Source of the DNA: Cardiobacteriaceae bacterium TAE3-ERU3
GTDB lineage: Bacteria > Pseudomonadota > Gammaproteobacteria > Cardiobacteriales > Cardiobacteriaceae
Direction: 5' to 3'
NCBI GenBank assembly: GCA_019218315.1
Contig: JAHUUI010000001.1
Coordinates: forward strand, 479,722-543,721
Length of the DNA: 64,000 nt
A model generated the notes under the pieces. The model did not search any database, was not told the DNA's origin, and worked only from the letters and a program-made list of their open reading frames with translations. Shown here in pieces: positions 32,167 through 40,453 of this stretch; positions within the stretch are counted from its first letter, which is position 1, and every line of letters starts with the position of its first letter. A program made the position numbers and the translations under genes.

Positions 32167-33288
32167 TCAGCTACCTATTGCTTGCTCACGCCACTCACTC
32201 ATAGTCATACCATAAGTTTTGCGGAAAATCTTCCCGACCTGACTTAAATCATCAAAGCCGCAGCGAGAGATCATATGCGAAAAAGACTCCATAGGGCTTG
32301 CCTTAATCAAACGAAGTAAGTATTCGAGTCGTAGCTTGGTCGCATACTTCGCCGGGCTGGTATCATAATATGCAAATATTTTATATAGTTGGCTGGTTGA
32401 GCAGCCAACTGCTTTTGCCAGTTTATGAATCCGTAGTGGCTGAGATATATGATTCAGCATATATTGCTCAGCTGCACTAAATTGTGCGGCGTACGATTTC
32501 TCTGAGTCTGAGGTACTTTTGTGTCCACTCAAGGCTTGGTTAGCCTCAAGGAGAATATGGTGGAGCATGGTTTCAACTTGCATCAACAATGCTTTTTTAC
32601 AAGTTTCATCGAGAGTTTGCCGTTGCTCAGCCAAAAACCTAATTCTTCCTTGGATAAATGGATAAAGGCTTGATTGCTTGATGAAGTTGGTCATTCTGTA
32701 TGGATCAGCAAAGCATTCTGGAGTTGAGTGGGGAAAATCATGGCGACATATTGGGATACGCAGTACTGCACCGGATCCAGCCTGATTTTTTAATGCGGAA
32801 ATATAGCGGCTATCGTAGAGCATGAAGTCATAATGATTTACTTTGATCGCCACTTCATCTTTAGCGCGATGGCTGCGCATAAGCTTAGCTTCCGCTTTGC
32901 TATTCAGGCTGAAATAAAAAGATAGCCAAAATAAATCCGCATCTGCATCATCAGTTTGCGTGAATGTACAATTTGCCGCATCATTAATACCCACACCAAG
33001 AATAATGCGCTTGGTAAAAGCAATTTCTACATCGACATATCCACTTTGGTTTTGCACTAAAGGCTCGACTTGTAACCCTTGGTAGACACTTGACAGATTA
33101 CTTCGCCAATAATCAAAGCGTTCTTTTTTGGGTAAAGCAGATGTAGAGAGGTGATGCGTACTGAAACCATCATGCAGCAGTGCTAGCCGCTGCTGCTCAC
33201 TTAATCTTTGCTGATTTTGTTCGAGGATAAGACTCAACATAATATTGCTTCTTTCAATGGAGGGCTTGCTATATTCTTCCGTACTCAT
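32167..33288 (-). CDS. AraC family transcriptional regulator (1)
   Basis: A ~373-residue regulator; an internal ATG at residue 17 could be the true start. The N-terminal part (RFDYWRSNLSSVYQGLQVEP) matches the AraC-binding-like domain found in FeaR-type regulators. The last ~100 residues are the double helix-turn-helix: IHKLAKAVGCSTSQLYKIF for the first reading helix and ISRCGFDDLSQVGKIFRKTYG for the second. It shares this layout with the gene at 33532-34575, so the two are paralogues. The regulon is unknown; the nearby surface-fibre locus is a candidate target. Confidence 0.85.
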   Translation of the reverse strand: MSTEEYSKPSIERSNIMLSLILEQNQQRLSEQQRLALLHDGFSTHHLSTSALPKKERFDYWRSNLSSVYQGLQVEPLVQNQSGYVDVEIAFTKRIILGVGINDAANCTFTQTDDADADLFWLSFYFSLNSKAEAKLMRSHRAKDEVAIKVNHYDFMLYDSRYISALKNQAGSGAVLRIPICRHDFPHSTPECFADPYRMTNFIKQSSLYPFIQGRIRFLAEQRQTLDETCKKALLMQVETMLHHILLEANQALSGHKSTSDSEKSYAAQFSAAEQYMLNHISQPLRIHKLAKAVGCSTSQLYKIFAYYDTSPAKYATKLRLEYLLRLIKASPMESFSHMISRCGFDDLSQVGKIFRKTYGMTMSEWREQAIGS

Positions 33289-33498
33289 AACTTTACAAAA
33301 TCGCAGTCTACGTATTCATGTTGCATGATCTAATTCCCTCACACCAGAGTAGGTTCAGATAGCGCAAATAAGTGAACGCTTATATTGGCATCCGAGCTTA
33401 TGGAGCAAAGGGTTGGTATCAATAATGAATAAAATCTATAAATACAAAAGTGTATGAGTATTAAAACACTTGTATCATTAGATAACCATCACTGGAAA

Positions 33499-33514
33499 TA
33501 GGTATATTTACCTA
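33499..33514. promoter_or_regulatory. Palindrome TAGGTA-TATT-TACCTA
   Basis: A perfect inverted repeat (6-bp arms, 4-bp spacer) between the two AraC genes. TAGGTATATTT from it recurs at 40039-40049 upstream of the hfaA-like gene, with an inverted partial copy near 40133. It may be a regulator-binding site. Confidence 0.35.
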
Positions 33515-33531
33515 AAAATCAATAAGCATTG

Positions 33532-34575
33532 TTATGGTTCTGAGGATTCATGCTGTATCTGCTTCCGGTAGCTGCTCATACTGACGCCATAATGTCTTTT
33601 AAATAGCTTTCCAGCCTGATCAATATTATTGAAACCGCACTGATAAACCAGTGTTGAGATATGCTGGTTTGCAAAACTCTTTTTGCTGAGCAACTGATGA
33701 AGCTTTTCAAGCTTAAGGCGGATAATGTGTTGGTAGGGTGTCGTATTGCAATGAGTGAAAGCACGAAACAATGTGGCTCTTGATGTACCTAGTGCATCAG
33801 AAAGGTCTTCTGGCTTCAAAGGCCGGGACATCTGATCCAAGATATATTGCTCAGCCGCAAAATAGAGGCCTCTATAGTGCGTTGCAGCCATACCCTCTAG
33901 ATCATCTTTCTGCACCATAGCACTGAGAATATTTTGTAAGATCTCTTCCAGAATTTGAATGGCACACTGGAAAAGGAAAAATAACGATGCCTCATCTGCT
34001 TCCTTTATAATACGCTGTAATTCAAAAAGATGTTGCTGTAAAAGTGGAAAAAGGTTGTGTTGACGGATAAGTGCTGTAGCTAATTCAGGGTTAAGCTGTT
34101 GCCATACACGATACTTTTCATGATCAGTATTTTCTATTGAAAATTGCCAAAGAATACCTTTTCCTGCCGATGACTTAATAGCAAATTCATATCGCTCATC
34201 AAAAATATAAAAATCACCAGCGCTGTAGGATGTCTTAATCTGTTTTTGATTGATGAAGTGCGTTGTTTCGCCATGTATTGTGATTGGGAAATAAAGACAT
34301 AACCAGAATGGCTTTACATCATCATGATGGGCTCCCTGAAAATGATAGACCGCATCAGCGGTATTGATCATTGCCAAAACATGCTGATCAAATCTACAGA
34401 CCGATGCAGATGCCTGAAAATCAGAACAAGGCTTTGCTTGTTTAATTTGCAATCTGGGAAAGATAGTGTTGATCATCTCATGCCATACACGGAAACGCTT
34501 TGATTCAGGCACATCATGCGTATCCATATATTGATATTGTAACGATTTACTATCTGAATTTATGTTGCTGAACAT
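33532..34575 (-). CDS. AraC family transcriptional regulator (2)
   Basis: A 347-residue paralogue of the regulator at 32167-33288. The sensor domain begins after MFSNINSDSKSLQYQY with ESKRFRVWHEMINTIFPRL. The C-terminal AraC helix-turn-helix pair is seen in PEDLSDALGTSRATLFRAF and YQCGFNNIDQAGKLFKRHYG. The chosen ATG at 34575 has AAAGGAAAA upstream; a TTG 33 bp earlier is an alternative. It is transcribed in the same direction as the surface-protein locus, 316 bp downstream of it. Confidence 0.85.
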   Translation of the reverse strand: MFSNINSDSKSLQYQYMDTHDVPESKRFRVWHEMINTIFPRLQIKQAKPCSDFQASASVCRFDQHVLAMINTADAVYHFQGAHHDDVKPFWLCLYFPITIHGETTHFINQKQIKTSYSAGDFYIFDERYEFAIKSSAGKGILWQFSIENTDHEKYRVWQQLNPELATALIRQHNLFPLLQQHLFELQRIIKEADEASLFFLFQCAIQILEEILQNILSAMVQKDDLEGMAATHYRGLYFAAEQYILDQMSRPLKPEDLSDALGTSRATLFRAFTHCNTTPYQHIIRLKLEKLHQLLSKKSFANQHISTLVYQCGFNNIDQAGKLFKRHYGVSMSSYRKQIQHESSEP

Positions 34576-34852
34576 AAAGTGCTTTTCCTTTATCTCGATA
34601 CTTACCAAAGAACAAGGCGATTTGTATAGCGTATCGCTTATATATCGCTAGGAAACTTTGCATTTCAATAAGAGCAATGCTTGAAATGTTAAGTTCTACA
34701 TACAGTATGGCATGGGGATGAGACGCAATATGAACATTTGAGAATTTTGGCCACATCCACTCCAATATGGGCTATTTCGATAAAAAATTAAGGTTCTTAC
34801 CAAGAAATCATATAAACATCCACCAACAGAGATGTTTGCGTCTGCTAAATAG
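34576..34852. other. Intergenic region upstream of AraC regulator 2
   Basis: About 280 bp between the surface protein terminator and regulator 2. It should hold the regulator promoter. No gene or repeat was recognised. Confidence 0.4.
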
Positions 34853-34883
34853 AAAAAGGGAAGAGCATGGCTCTTCCCTTTTT
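34853..34883. terminator. Strong terminator of the hfa-like locus
   Basis: A 14-bp perfect stem (AAAAAGGGAAGAGC pairing with its inverse) with a 3-base loop, 8 bp beyond the stop of the large surface protein gene and T-rich on the minus strand. Confidence 0.88.
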
Positions 34884-34891
34884 TGTCGGGA

Positions 34892-37800
34892 TTAATTTCC
34901 GCTGCGAATAACGCTGCTGATTGAAGCAGCGTTGCCAACAGCCGAAGCCATAGCACTGTTGCCGTACAAAGTAGCACTAGCTACACCATTTGATCCTGAT
35001 GCATCACGGATAATTTGGCTGCTGTCGTTGCGGGCAATAACATCGCCTGCATTAACTTGAGTATTAGTGATCTTTGTATTGATGCTATTGCCATCAACGC
35101 CGGCATTGACAACCATATTATTCACTACATTGTTACCAGCAGCGTAGACGTTACTGCGGTTATTAAGGATACGGCTATCAGAACCATTCAATCCTGTATT
35201 GGTACTGTTAATACTGGTTGCAGCATTGAGCGTTGCGCTAATTGCAGCATCATTCTCTTGATTATTATCAATAATGAATAAGTTATTGTTCCCAGTATTA
35301 AGCGCTGTGCCACTACGTACTGCCAAAATATTCTCACCATAGTTACCGCTGGCTTTACTGTTCAGAACATTATTGGCAACGGTGAATGAATTTGAACCTG
35401 CTGCATTCTGTGAATTGACTGAAATACCATACTTGCCGATTTCCAGTGTTGACGAGACGCTGCCAATCCCGGTTGATTGCTGGTTGGTGATGCCTGAATT
35501 AGACTGTGCATTTAACACTGTGCCTGAGCTTAACTCGCTACGGTTAATAGCATAGTTCGCACGAGCATCAGAGCTCACTGCATTACCTTCCAGCGTCAGA
35601 GTATTGTTACCAGTAACTCCGTCGGTAATATCGGCTAATAGTTCGCCAATACGAACATTGGCTTTAGCTTCAAATCCATCAGATGTGCTCTGGCTATTGA
35701 ACAAACTCACTGGTGCAGAAACCGCCAGGTTAGTTGCGCCAGAGACTGCTTGTTTATTCATCGCCAGATTGTTAATAGCCAAGCTACTCACATTGTTCTT
35801 GAGAATATTTTGAGTCACACCATTACCACGCTGCATAATGACACCAATTCGCTCGATATCATTATTGGCGCTAACTTTGCTGTTGTGCCCCTCTTGGGTG
35901 CTACTCAATAGGGCTTCGGTAGCAATTTCAGCCTGACCAGCATTGGCTACTAGTGACATATCATTGTTAGCTCTATTGCCTTTAGCATCAGCGAACAGCT
36001 CGTTATTATTAACATTCTGCTCATCTTGTGCTCTCAGTACCGCAATACCGATACGGTCTGAAACAAGGTTGCTGGCATTGGTCTGGCGATTCATGCCAAC
36101 TGTCTGTTTATTCGTCAAAGTAGCCCGGTTTCCTGATAATTCAGTACCTTTAGCAGAGAGTACGTTAGATGATTGGTTTTGAAGCGCATTACTACTGACG
36201 GTATTGTATTGAACAGTATTTTTATGAGAGTCATTTGTTAATTTACTCTCATTAAAGACCATAATGCCCTTGATCGTATTCGTCGCTGATGTAAGGCTGT
36301 TAGCGTTACTCTGCTCGCTCATCTGATCATTGCTAATGCTAAGTGTATTATTGCGAAGCGCACCTGCTGAAGAGGCGGTCACTGCATTTGCACTATCGTT
36401 ACCCAGACTATTAGCGCTGACAAGGTTTTTGGTTACTACATTATTAGAGCCAATATTTTGGGGAGCTACGATCCCAACATATTTAACAGTATTACTGCTG
36501 GTTGTAACACCTTCTGCAGCTATAAGCTGATCATTTTCACTTCTGATATTACTACCAGCAATACTTCCAGCAAGGCTTGTTACAATAGTGCGGTTGTTTG
36601 CACTGTTGGTTTTGGCCAATGCTTCCAGGCTATTGTTGCCAATAACGTTACCATCATTGTTAACTTGACCTGCTTTGATGCCCAGTAATCCAACTGTATT
36701 TTGAGCTTCACTCTTGTCGCCACGGTATTCCTGAACATTCTTATGAGTTGCTTCAAGTTGCTCAATACTATTTGCTGTGCTGGCAAGCTCGTTGCCTGCA
36801 CTATTGTGCATGACCCGCGCTGAAATTTGGTTACCTGAAACAGTACCAGCAGCACCGCCAAGATTATCAGCTTGAATACCGAGAACATTCGCAATTGTGT
36901 TATGAGCATCGGTATCGACTGAGTCACTCTTCTGCTTATTTTCCAGGCCAATTTTGCCAGCAGTCAGGCTGGTGGTGGCATTTAATGTCGTGGCATTGCT
37001 TGCTAGGTTATTACTGGCCGCTGACTCAAATACGTTGCCATTGATATTTAGCGTCCGAACGCTAGTGATGTTGTTAGCTGAAATACCCAGATTATCTACA
37101 TGTGAGCTAGCTTTGGTAGCATGATTGCTGCTCTCTTGTTGGCTTAGTAAAGCCAAGTTTGATCCTGCAGCACTGGTGCCAGCTTTGACAAAAAGGCTGT
37201 TACTGGCTGTGTTGTCAGTCGCATTGATTCTGACCTTGTTGTTATTGATATTTAGCTCAGCGCCTGTGCTGTTCGCAAGCTCGGCACCAAGTGTGGTGAT
37301 CCTGCTATCAGACGTATTCTCAGCCTTGCTATTTTGATTATTGCTCAGTTTCGCCTCAGCATTTTTCTGTTCTGAAACAGTGTTCACTTTTGTATCATTT
37401 ACAGCACTATTGGCATACGTTGTTGCACTATGCTTGTTATCCGAAACATTGGCAACGAGTGCGTCAATTGCATTACTAGACTTGATGCCAGTCATATCTG
37501 ATTTGGATTGCGCACGAATAGCCGCTGTATTATCGGTAGTTTGATGATTGCTAATTTTCGAAGCCGGAGTGCCTGTTTGAGCATTAATACTCAGAGCATG
37601 AACAATCGAAGCATTATCAGCGCTATTGCCTGTTGAAATAGCTTCGCGCTGGTTATCATTGACATCGGCTGTAACAGAGTTATGCTCAACTTTAGTGACC
37701 GTTAAGCCCTGACTAAAAGCAGTAGTATTACCTAAGCTTCTCTGTATGTTTGTAATTGCGCTATTATTTTCTAAGGCGATAGCCGGAGTATTTACTTCGG

Positions 37801-38056
37801 ATGTTGCGTTAATCTCGTTCGCCCGCGCATTTGCGCTGGCAGTATTCTTATACTGTGTCAGTTTTGCATTAAATTGACTATTTTCGTTTTTAAAACTACT
37901 CAGCTGATTAGCTTCTTCAAGCTTGGAGCTGATTTGATCATTTCTGATCTCGGAACCGATTTTAGTTTCGGCTGAAGCATGGCTGATGCTCAGTGCAGCA
38001 ATTGCACCAACTATCAGACGGACGCAAACTTTTTGCTTTGTGTTAAGCTGTTTCAT
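34892..38056 (-). CDS. Large repetitive surface protein, HfaD-like adhesin
   Basis: A 1054-residue secreted protein. The start at 38056 (after AAGGAGAATCCTC) gives a signal peptide, MKQLNTKQKVCVRLIVGAIA, with cleavage near SHASAETK. The rest is very rich in Asn, Ser, Ala and Thr, lacks Cys, and carries about 14 imperfect repeats of ~60-75 residues around a core like NN.V.A.A.GN.A.N (for example NELFADAKGNRANND, VLNSKASGNYGENI), often preceded by a short IGI/LGI strand. No beta-barrel, YadA anchor or LPXTG is present, so export probably uses the CsgG/HfaB-like pore encoded just upstream. The order small protein-HfaB-large protein matches hfaABD of Caulobacter, where HfaD helps anchor the holdfast. 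Confidence 0.7.
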   Translation of the reverse strand: MKQLNTKQKVCVRLIVGAIAALSISHASAETKIGSEIRNDQISSKLEEANQLSSFKNENSQFNAKLTQYKNTASANARANEINATSEVNTPAIALENNSAITNIQRSLGNTTAFSQGLTVTKVEHNSVTADVNDNQREAISTGNSADNASIVHALSINAQTGTPASKISNHQTTDNTAAIRAQSKSDMTGIKSSNAIDALVANVSDNKHSATTYANSAVNDTKVNTVSEQKNAEAKLSNNQNSKAENTSDSRITTLGAELANSTGAELNINNNKVRINATDNTASNSLFVKAGTSAAGSNLALLSQQESSNHATKASSHVDNLGISANNITSVRTLNINGNVFESAASNNLASNATTLNATTSLTAGKIGLENKQKSDSVDTDAHNTIANVLGIQADNLGGAAGTVSGNQISARVMHNSAGNELASTANSIEQLEATHKNVQEYRGDKSEAQNTVGLLGIKAGQVNNDGNVIGNNSLEALAKTNSANNRTIVTSLAGSIAGSNIRSENDQLIAAEGVTTSSNTVKYVGIVAPQNIGSNNVVTKNLVSANSLGNDSANAVTASSAGALRNNTLSISNDQMSEQSNANSLTSATNTIKGIMVFNESKLTNDSHKNTVQYNTVSSNALQNQSSNVLSAKGTELSGNRATLTNKQTVGMNRQTNASNLVSDRIGIAVLRAQDEQNVNNNELFADAKGNRANNDMSLVANAGQAEIATEALLSSTQEGHNSKVSANNDIERIGVIMQRGNGVTQNILKNNVSSLAINNLAMNKQAVSGATNLAVSAPVSLFNSQSTSDGFEAKANVRIGELLADITDGVTGNNTLTLEGNAVSSDARANYAINRSELSSGTVLNAQSNSGITNQQSTGIGSVSSTLEIGKYGISVNSQNAAGSNSFTVANNVLNSKASGNYGENILAVRSGTALNTGNNNLFIIDNNQENDAAISATLNAATSINSTNTGLNGSDSRILNNRSNVYAAGNNVVNNMVVNAGVDGNSINTKITNTQVNAGDVIARNDSSQIIRDASGSNGVASATLYGNSAMASAVGNAASISSVIRSGN

Positions 38057-38105
38057 GAGGATTCTCCTTACTGGGTTCATTAAGTCATCCGTATGGATGG
38101 GGTAT

Positions 38106-38154
38106 GGGATTCAGGTGAATCCCGGGTGGGTTATTGGAGCGGGTTCAGCGCTCC
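38106..38154 (-). promoter_or_regulatory. Two tandem hairpins between the hfaB-like and hfaD-like genes
   Basis: GGGATTC-AGGT-GAATCCC (38106-38123) and GGAGCG-7 nt-CGCTCC (38136-38154) form two short GC-rich hairpins in the 194-bp spacer. Neither has a U-tract, so mRNA processing or protection is more likely than termination. Confidence 0.5.
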
Positions 38155-38250
38155 GGACGTGGGAACTGTTTCATTCGATCTATACACCATCATTTTTGCT
38201 GCGAAGCTCTATCAAGCTGTAAAGATGGAATGGCATTTAAGATCATTTGA

Positions 38251-39159
38251 TTACTCTGTAGTCTTTTGTTGTGCTGGTATAAAGGCATTCTGAATACAGC
38301 TGTAACTGCTGATGCCGGTCACACCGGACAGTAATTCAAGTACAGATGTTTCAATCGTGGTCCGCACACCAAGCTGAATAGGCTCAATATTGCGCTCACC
38401 AACATTGATATCAAAAAGATTACTGCCAAAGAAGCGGAAGATGCCAAGGCCCGTCTCGTAGCCAGTGATCTGCTTCTGCAAGCTACTGGTTTTGACTACT
38501 GCAAGTGTTTTTGTATCGACCAAGCGCAGGTCAACGCCAATATTCATCGTAAATATTCTTGCTTTTGGCCCTATTCCCGAAACCGAGACTTGGCCACCGC
38601 CGGACTGGATGTTGTAGTTCAGCTCTGTAATACCGCCGACTATATAGTAGTCCGACTTTAAGATACTGCCACCGTGATAAGGCAGCCAATTAACGCCTTC
38701 AGAGCGGCCTTCTGCTGTAGTTAGATTATGCTGGTTACCATCACCGAGCTGGCGCTTATCGATGTAACCTAATTCACGCTCTGCTATATCAGGATCAAAG
38801 CGTTCGCGAATCTGAATTGGATAGCCAATTTTACCCAGTGCAGAGTAAACCATCAGTGATCCACCCTGAGTAATGGCGTGGCCTTCATCCTGGTTATACT
38901 TGCCGGTATAGTCTTTTACATTCCCAACAGCAACGGAGACAACTGGCGTATGATTTGCCCGTAATGCATTGGCATAACAACTAAAAGCACTTTCAACTGG
39001 CGTGATATTATTGCGTGGCTTTGTGCCAATTAGCACAGGTGCTTCACCTTTTTCATAAATGATCCCTTTAGGTGCTGTAGCACAGCCACTAAGCAGCACA
39101 GTTGCTGTGACCATCGACATAATCAAGGTACGTTTTTTGCGAATCGATACAAATTTCAT
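38251..39159 (-). CDS. CsgG/HfaB family outer-membrane lipoprotein
   Basis: A 302-residue lipoprotein with signal MKFVSIRKKRTLIMSMVTAT and lipobox LLSGC. CsgG-family features include VSVAVGNVKDYTGKYNQDEG near the N-terminus, QGGSLMVYSALGK, YYIVGGITELNYNI, DLRLVDTKTLAVVKT and a C-terminal ELLSGV helix. CsgG proteins form nonameric outer-membrane pores that export curli; HfaB is the holdfast-anchoring member. The start at 39159 follows GAAGG. It begins 17 bp after the small secreted protein gene and precedes the repetitive protein gene, its likely export client. Confidence 0.85.
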   Translation of the reverse strand: MKFVSIRKKRTLIMSMVTATVLLSGCATAPKGIIYEKGEAPVLIGTKPRNNITPVESAFSCYANALRANHTPVVSVAVGNVKDYTGKYNQDEGHAITQGGSLMVYSALGKIGYPIQIRERFDPDIAERELGYIDKRQLGDGNQHNLTTAEGRSEGVNWLPYHGGSILKSDYYIVGGITELNYNIQSGGGQVSVSGIGPKARIFTMNIGVDLRLVDTKTLAVVKTSSLQKQITGYETGLGIFRFFGSNLFDINVGERNIEPIQLGVRTTIETSVLELLSGVTGISSYSCIQNAFIPAQQKTTE

Positions 39160-39175
39160 GGAGATTGCCTTCAAA

Positions 39176-39787
39176 TTAGTTTAGTGCGCCGCGAAATTCA
39201 CAAGCCTGACCACCATTCGTCGTTACACTTTGATGACCACTGTTGCTTTGTGTGCTATGTCCGCTCTGTGAAGTTTGACCATTGCCTGCATTAATGACTC
39301 CACCATTTGCACTGGAAGGTGAGTGATCTACACTGGCGGAAACACTGCCCGTATTGTTTTGCCTGTTCGTATCTGTAGATGAATTTTGTTCATCACCCGC
39401 TTTACTGTAGCTATTGCCGGCACTGTCTGAATTACTATTGGCGCTAACCGGAGCTTGAGGAGAAGAAGTCTGTGCTGTTTGTGCAATCTGGCTCTCATTC
39501 GCTTTAGCCGTAGGCTGGAATTGGCAGTTGATTTGCTTATCGATGTTATTCGTGATGTTGGTGACAGTCTTGAAACCATCGTAATAACCGCCTTTTTTCT
39601 TTTCCATCACATCCAAAACGAGCATTTTGTTCGCTTTGTCAGCATTACTTTCAAACTGCCACGGGGTGTTTTCATTCGACCACCCACCAGCAGCATAAGC
39701 AGGTACAGAAAGAGAAAAAGTAATTATTCCGATAATAGCAATATGTTTTACCTTAATTGCTGACGGATAAAAATCATAGTTTGTCAT
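39176..39787 (-). CDS. Small secreted protein, HfaA-like position
   Basis: A 203-residue protein with an N-terminal hydrophobic signal ending SVPAYAAGGW. The first mature part has a defined-looking motif (SNENTPWQFES, LDVMEKKKGGYYDGF, TNITNNIDKQINC); the C-terminal ~110 residues are low-complexity Ser/Asn/Gln/Thr and end CEFRGALN, leaving two cysteines (INC and ACEF) that could form a disulfide. Position, secretion and composition fit an HfaA- or curlin-like subunit, but I see no clear sequence match to HfaA. The ATG at 39787 follows CGGAG. Confidence 0.55.
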   Translation of the reverse strand: MTNYDFYPSAIKVKHIAIIGIITFSLSVPAYAAGGWSNENTPWQFESNADKANKMLVLDVMEKKKGGYYDGFKTVTNITNNIDKQINCQFQPTAKANESQIAQTAQTSSPQAPVSANSNSDSAGNSYSKAGDEQNSSTDTNRQNNTGSVSASVDHSPSSANGGVINAGNGQTSQSGHSTQSNSGHQSVTTNGGQACEFRGALN

Positions 39788-40453
39788 TACCAACTACTCC
39801 GAATTGAATGTCGCGCTACTTTAACGAGATATCATAATTGGCAGTTAGTAAAAAATTCTATGCTTGTCGCATATCCGTTTCAAACGGCTATTAATTGGTT
39901 ATTAATCAGATGCAGTGAGAGTATCGTATAAGACTATATATTTCATGCTATCACAATGAAATAAATAATATTAATCTGCGCATATTGTATGTTTTAACAG
40001 TACGTGATGGAGAGTGGATCAGAGAAATATAGCCGAATATAGGTATATTTTATTATTAATCAAAAATTAATAAATGAATTGATCAAGCTATACGTAAATC
40101 ACTGTATTCAGGTATGGCATATTATTTATTCATACCTATATACTATTAGGTTTATTTGTACAAACTGAACCAATAGAATATTCAATAATAATAAACAATA
40201 GGACTAATTAAAGGGGAAGTGCTCTTAATGACAGCGTACAGATGGTGGTCGCATTGCAACCATCAGTGATGGTGGAGAGTTGCTATGAAGCAAATTCGGT
40301 AGCTGGTAGCGGCTTGTTCAATATCTAAAGAAGCTGCTTATTTTGCACGTGCGTGGTTAGGGCTGTAATACTGGCGATAAGCTGCAATAGCTGCACCTTA
40401 TCGCCAGATTGCCCCACTGACAGGGCCGTAACGGCGGCTTAACTAGCCCTATG
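39788..40453. other. AT-rich regulatory region between the hfa-like locus and glgP
   Basis: A 666-bp region without a convincing gene. It holds TAGGTATATTT (40039-40049), an inverted TATAGGTATG copy near 40131-40140, a perfect 15-bp palindrome ACCATCAGTGATGGT (40259-40273) and the glgP terminator candidate. It must contain the promoter of the hfa-like operon. Confidence 0.5.
40371..40407 (-). terminator. Possible terminator after glgP
   Basis: CTGGCGATAAG (40371-40381) and CTTATCGCCAG (40397-40407) form a perfect 11-bp stem with a 15-base loop, 47 bp beyond the glgP stop. No strong U-tract follows. Confidence 0.5.

Follow-up and report, generated by a model that had tools for sequence, protein, structure and literature searches.

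The window, the whole 64,000-nucleotide stretch of DNA from Cardiobacteriaceae bacterium TAE3-ERU3 that was analysed, contains a three-gene locus which we assign to a divergent variant of the HfaABD type; no description of such a locus beyond Caulobacterales was found in the literature searched, which covered few subscription journals. Judged from sequence, and with a probability of roughly 0.62, the CsgG/HfaB-family protein B would be a pore that exports a small protein (A) and a giant repeat protein (D), and these would form a surface fibre or adhesin and not, in this bacterium, an anchor for a Wza-exported holdfast. The locus is made up of three intact ORFs in the order A-B-D on the minus strand (39787-34892), with the following features:

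39176..39787, minus strand: A, a 203-aa secreted protein in the HfaA position, with a Sec signal peptide, conserved cysteines 88 and 196, and NxQxNxG motifs
38251..39159, minus strand: B, a 302-aa outer-membrane lipoprotein of the CsgG/HfaB family and predicted pore, with Pfam and NCBIfam matches
34892..38056, minus strand: D, a 1054-aa secreted giant with 15 repeats of ~68 aa and an HfaD-related C-terminus
34853..34883, minus strand: intrinsic terminator 3' of D, with a 14-bp perfect stem, a 3-nt loop and a T run
38081..38250, minus strand: 170-nt spacer between B and D, with three predicted RNA hairpins and without a T run
39855..39883, minus strand: promoter-like site 5' of A, TTGAAA-17-TAGAAT, weak, such sites being no commoner than in shuffles

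Starts were chosen by ribosome-binding sites (39787, 39159 and 38056 for A, B and D, respectively), that of A agreeing with the boundary in the sequence-only reading; the starts in the mechanical ORF list are set slightly earlier. The Sec signal peptides of A and D and the lipobox of B (LLSGC) were judged by eye. The single strong terminator claimed to lie under the trio was confirmed as a perfect inverted repeat of 14 bp which, read along the minus strand, is followed by a run of T. The spacer between B and D (RNA fold z-score -3.27) is present in a single copy in the genome and matched no family in an Rfam search, and conservation of hairpins between B and D in relatives was not seen in a rough test. 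The spacer might tune how much D is made relative to B, and its hairpins may mean that D is transcribed or controlled separately from B. The locus is closely followed by two similarly sized AraC-family regulators, encoded one after the other in the same orientation (32167-34608), which may or may not control it.

By sequence, B is much nearer to HfaB than to CsgG, with a match of 1.5e-67 (227.6 bits) to the NCBIfam HfaB model (NF037935), below its curated cut-off of 300 bits, versus only 4.7e-12 for the CsgG equivalog model. The Pfam CsgG family was matched at 4.9e-18 (65.6 bits), above its cut-off of 20.8 bits, and CsgG structures matched B by sequence at 2.6e-10. For comparison, a canonical set was drawn from 60 genomes of the family of one Caulobacteraceae MAG, in 42 of which HfaB was found over the cut-off; 30 canonical loci were fetched, and the small protein and HfaD (~415 aa) could be extracted from 25 of these. 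Relatives of the window protein scored 196-222 bits against NF037935 and Caulobacter-type HfaB 342-455 bits, and the two sets were split by one branch of the tree (94/94; 200/200 bootstrap trees), placing B, on sequence grounds, in a clade separate from Caulobacter-type HfaB; the long branches of this tree make any reading beyond the split unsafe.

The 15 units of D are spaced 64-74 aa apart and follow a pattern of roughly LSNxQxS...IxxLGIxA...VxxNxVSAxAxGNxAxNxLxVxA. A model of these units scored the giants of relatives at a mean of 31.6 bits, while shuffled and reversed versions of the same giants gave no match (means of -98.6 and -124.8, respectively), and when the last 360 aa of 38 giants were aligned, N and Q positions at a spacing of ~70 proved invariant. 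The AlphaFold model of the D C-terminus, computed with the alignment of these 38 giants, was all-beta and appears solenoid-like (pLDDT 80.9, pTM 0.80). VIA-align returned generic beta-solenoids and helices, with beta-helix and solenoid chains at the top of its ranking (highest Z 9.1; CsgA 7.6), and we read the modelled fold as that of a generic beta-solenoid, which does not establish any particular named fold. Foldseek returned no row at E 0.001 or better for the D model; its top row was FapC (E 0.074, not significant), a likeness to the Fap amyloid that is set against a difference in the pore, which in the window is of the CsgG family and not FapF, the pore of the Fap system.

The kinship of D with HfaD was found at the C-terminus. 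When the final 90 profile columns of the two proteins were compared, the match reached 85.6% (E 5.6e-6) and a score of 34.0, which none of 60 column permutations equalled (highest 17.7), and on this evidence the C-termini of D and Caulobacter-type HfaD are homologous. This was the informative comparison; a single D-repeat model gave only an 8-column match to HfaD. For A, the profile likeness to HfaA was confined to a 13-residue motif, which was equalled by one of 60 permutations, and an N-terminal likeness found by eye (EN..D.AN..D.I) was dropped after 23 of 100 column permutations reached it, so that homology of A and HfaA was not demonstrable from these sequences by tests that were weak or negative. 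The structure model of A was too poor to use (pLDDT 49.7). Curated families (Pfam and NCBIfam) gave no match for A or D, PDB profile searches with either protein matched no chain, and plain HMM searches of the relatives of A and D with canonical HfaA and HfaD models returned no matches.

Profiles also linked the small and the large proteins to each other. Canonical HfaA and HfaD matched (88.7%, E 2.6e-6; loci L079-L108), and A and D matched weakly (19.7%; score 31.0, with permutations reaching at most 14.7), so that A, D, HfaA and HfaD may all be built on a single module. Low-complexity composition is the main worry in all of these profile matches, and column permutation controls it only partly. 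A module common to HfaA and HfaD would fit the joint assembly reported for the Caulobacter-type proteins, and it predicts their co-assembly.

A neighbourhood survey of relatives of B, of the kind that had been suggested for CsgG homologues, showed the trio to be kept together in all loci long enough to reveal it. A contig scan with an alignment of B from the window and from a Variovorax plasmid yielded 57 loci (B 45-60% identical) from Variovorax and other Burkholderiales, Novosphingobium and other sphingomonads, Aureimonas, Caulobacteraceae MAGs, an Arenicella MAG and others; Gammaproteobacteria in the GTDB sense includes Burkholderiales. A search for a 16S gene of the window organism found none. 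In each of the 57 loci the gene immediately before B encodes a homologue of A (weakest 4e-12); some of these had seeded the A model, but the most divergent, L060, L062 and L064 (7e-30 to 4e-12), had not. Exactly two cysteines, counted from a QxNC motif onward, are present in all 59 A sequences. Linkage of D was counted in the 46 loci with more than 3 kb of downstream sequence: in 41 a D-type protein was placed downstream of B by an automatic rule, in four more a giant occupies the same place with a mechanical ORF start that runs up into B, and in the remaining locus (L064) a D-type giant lies upstream of A. L060 shows this upstream position as well, on a contig that stops shortly beyond B. By sequence, wherever a locus is long enough to show D, the protein belongs to this one repeat family. 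In many relatives B is extended by an OmpA-like tail (a weak match, E 0.03-0.04) that the window protein lacks, and in several of them EAL proteins and two-component regulators are encoded nearby.

A close counterpart is a plasmid locus of Variovorax paradoxus VAI-C (CP063168.1), where the same trio (B 53-55% and A 34% identical) is annotated as an 'S-layer family protein' and hypothetical proteins; it differs from the window in the OmpA-like tail on B (weak match), a D of 1574 aa, and adjoining EAL and CRP-family genes. Close HfaB was not found in the sampled members of the window's family and order, nor in a class sample, and the locus was therefore likely, though unproven, acquired by horizontal transfer; the tree gave no supported placement of the window B with a donor group.

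The likeness to hfaABD put forward in the sequence-only reading holds for the gene order (the small secreted protein first, then the CsgG-type lipoprotein and the repeat protein), for B, where homology is clear, and for D by its C-terminal profile, but for A it is limited to the short motif. Apart from B, which lies in its own clade and under the HfaB cut-off, the window locus departs from canonical HfaABD in the length of D (1054 aa versus ~415 aa), in the two conserved cysteines of A, which most extracted HfaA sequences lack, and in the genome around it, which has no Poly_export protein. That genome (2.41 Mb, rated 100% complete) was also searched for other known systems, and genome-wide it contained no Curlin_rpt (PF07012), no CsgF (PF10614), no CsgG other than B, and no Poly_export protein (PF02563; Wza-type), the last with a search that does match in the Caulobacter control. 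The reported lack of holdfast-polysaccharide, CsgB and CsgF genes extends from the window to the whole genome as far as Poly_export, Curlin_rpt and CsgF are concerned.

Given these absences, neither a curli system nor a Wza-exported holdfast suits the window genome. HfsD is a protein of the Wza/Poly_export type. In Caulobacter, holdfast is exported by HfsDAB (PMC6707917), and with no Poly_export protein in its genome a Wza-exported holdfast is unlikely in the window organism. A true polysaccharide anchor like Caulobacter HfaABD could still operate on a polysaccharide that leaves the cell by some path independent of Wza/HfsD, or on an LPS-linked glycan; B and D are homologous to anchor proteins, the gene order is the same, and Poly_export proteins were found in 15 of 17 searched genomes that carry the trio, so that members of the family may have an anchor role. 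In the window organism, where a genome rated 100% complete lacks Poly_export and the only polysaccharide genes beside the locus are glycogen-type enzymes, we consider such an anchor unlikely. The earlier claim of a system distinct from holdfast accordingly fits the window genome and is less secure for the family.

The claim of a system distinct from curli is supported by the genome-wide absence of curlin repeats and CsgF. Curli and the window locus share a CsgG-family pore and repeat proteins with regularly placed N and Q, but the D repeat is ~68 aa long and of another pattern. A variant curli, with B as CsgG and A and D as unusual curlins, would agree with the fold family of B and with the appearance of CsgA among the solenoid-type chains (Z 7.6), and is very improbable against the missing curlin repeat and CsgF and the far stronger match of B to HfaB than to CsgG. 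Slightly less improbable, but still very unlikely, is that D is an adhesin secreted by a type I, two-partner or autotransporter route and merely adjoins A and B. Such routes are common for large secreted repeat proteins, and the 170-nt hairpin-bearing spacer does separate D from B; D, however, showed no domain of those systems in Pfam and NCBIfam and carries a Sec signal peptide, and it stays linked to A and B in Alpha-, Beta- and other Proteobacteria, including the loci that have D upstream.

What is established is the gene content, the conserved linkage, the repeat family, and homology for B and the C-terminus of D; from these we infer export, fibre formation and adhesion for the preferred reading, a protein fibre or adhesin exported through B. 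By homology, B would oligomerise as a CsgG-like lipoprotein pore in the outer membrane; A and D would reach the periplasm via Sec and would then cross B unfolded, export through B being suggested by the lack of any other known export domain and by the trio being kept together wherever visible. Outside the cell, D would fold as a long beta-solenoid-like rod of 15 repeats, which A, with its related NxQxNxG motifs, might join or nucleate, and the two together would remain attached to the pore, making up a fibre or adhesin on the cell surface. HfaA and HfaD of Caulobacter need HfaB for their location at the surface (PMC6707917), and a CsgG of unchanged size is proposed to secrete curlins of as many as 22 repeats in unfolded form (PMC3521004).

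How the holdfast is retained by the Hfa proteins has yet to be worked out in detail (PMC6707917), and a relative of the Hfa apparatus in a 2.4-Mb genome without a Wza-type exporter would offer a setting in which the protein part can be studied alone. Together with its relatives, the locus enlarges the CsgG family by a set of loci whose presumed substrates are very long and mostly annotated as hypothetical or 'S-layer family' proteins. Quite tentatively, these loci could represent a second widespread CsgG-dependent fibre lineage built on one N/Q module (A, D, HfaA and HfaD), with holdfast anchoring as one specialised use of a protein-fibre system able to work without polysaccharide.

Several of the surveyed loci depart from the common layout. 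In the Rhizobiaceae MAG (L064:4351-5754), the D upstream of A and B has 467 aa and ~5 repeats, near the size of canonical HfaD, and is a possible intermediate, and in Allopusillimonas ginsengisoli (L009:11519-19453) two D-family giants follow B in a row. Vibrio alginolyticus plasmids (L007:7983-8798) carry another CsgG/HfaB-family gene beside parA/parB-type genes; small hypothetical proteins accompany this gene, none annotated as a giant follows it immediately, and it may represent yet another kind of CsgG locus. One Caulobacteraceae MAG (L051, genome G057) contains, besides the trio, adjacent CsgG-like and CsgF genes on another contig, and both systems can thus share one genome.
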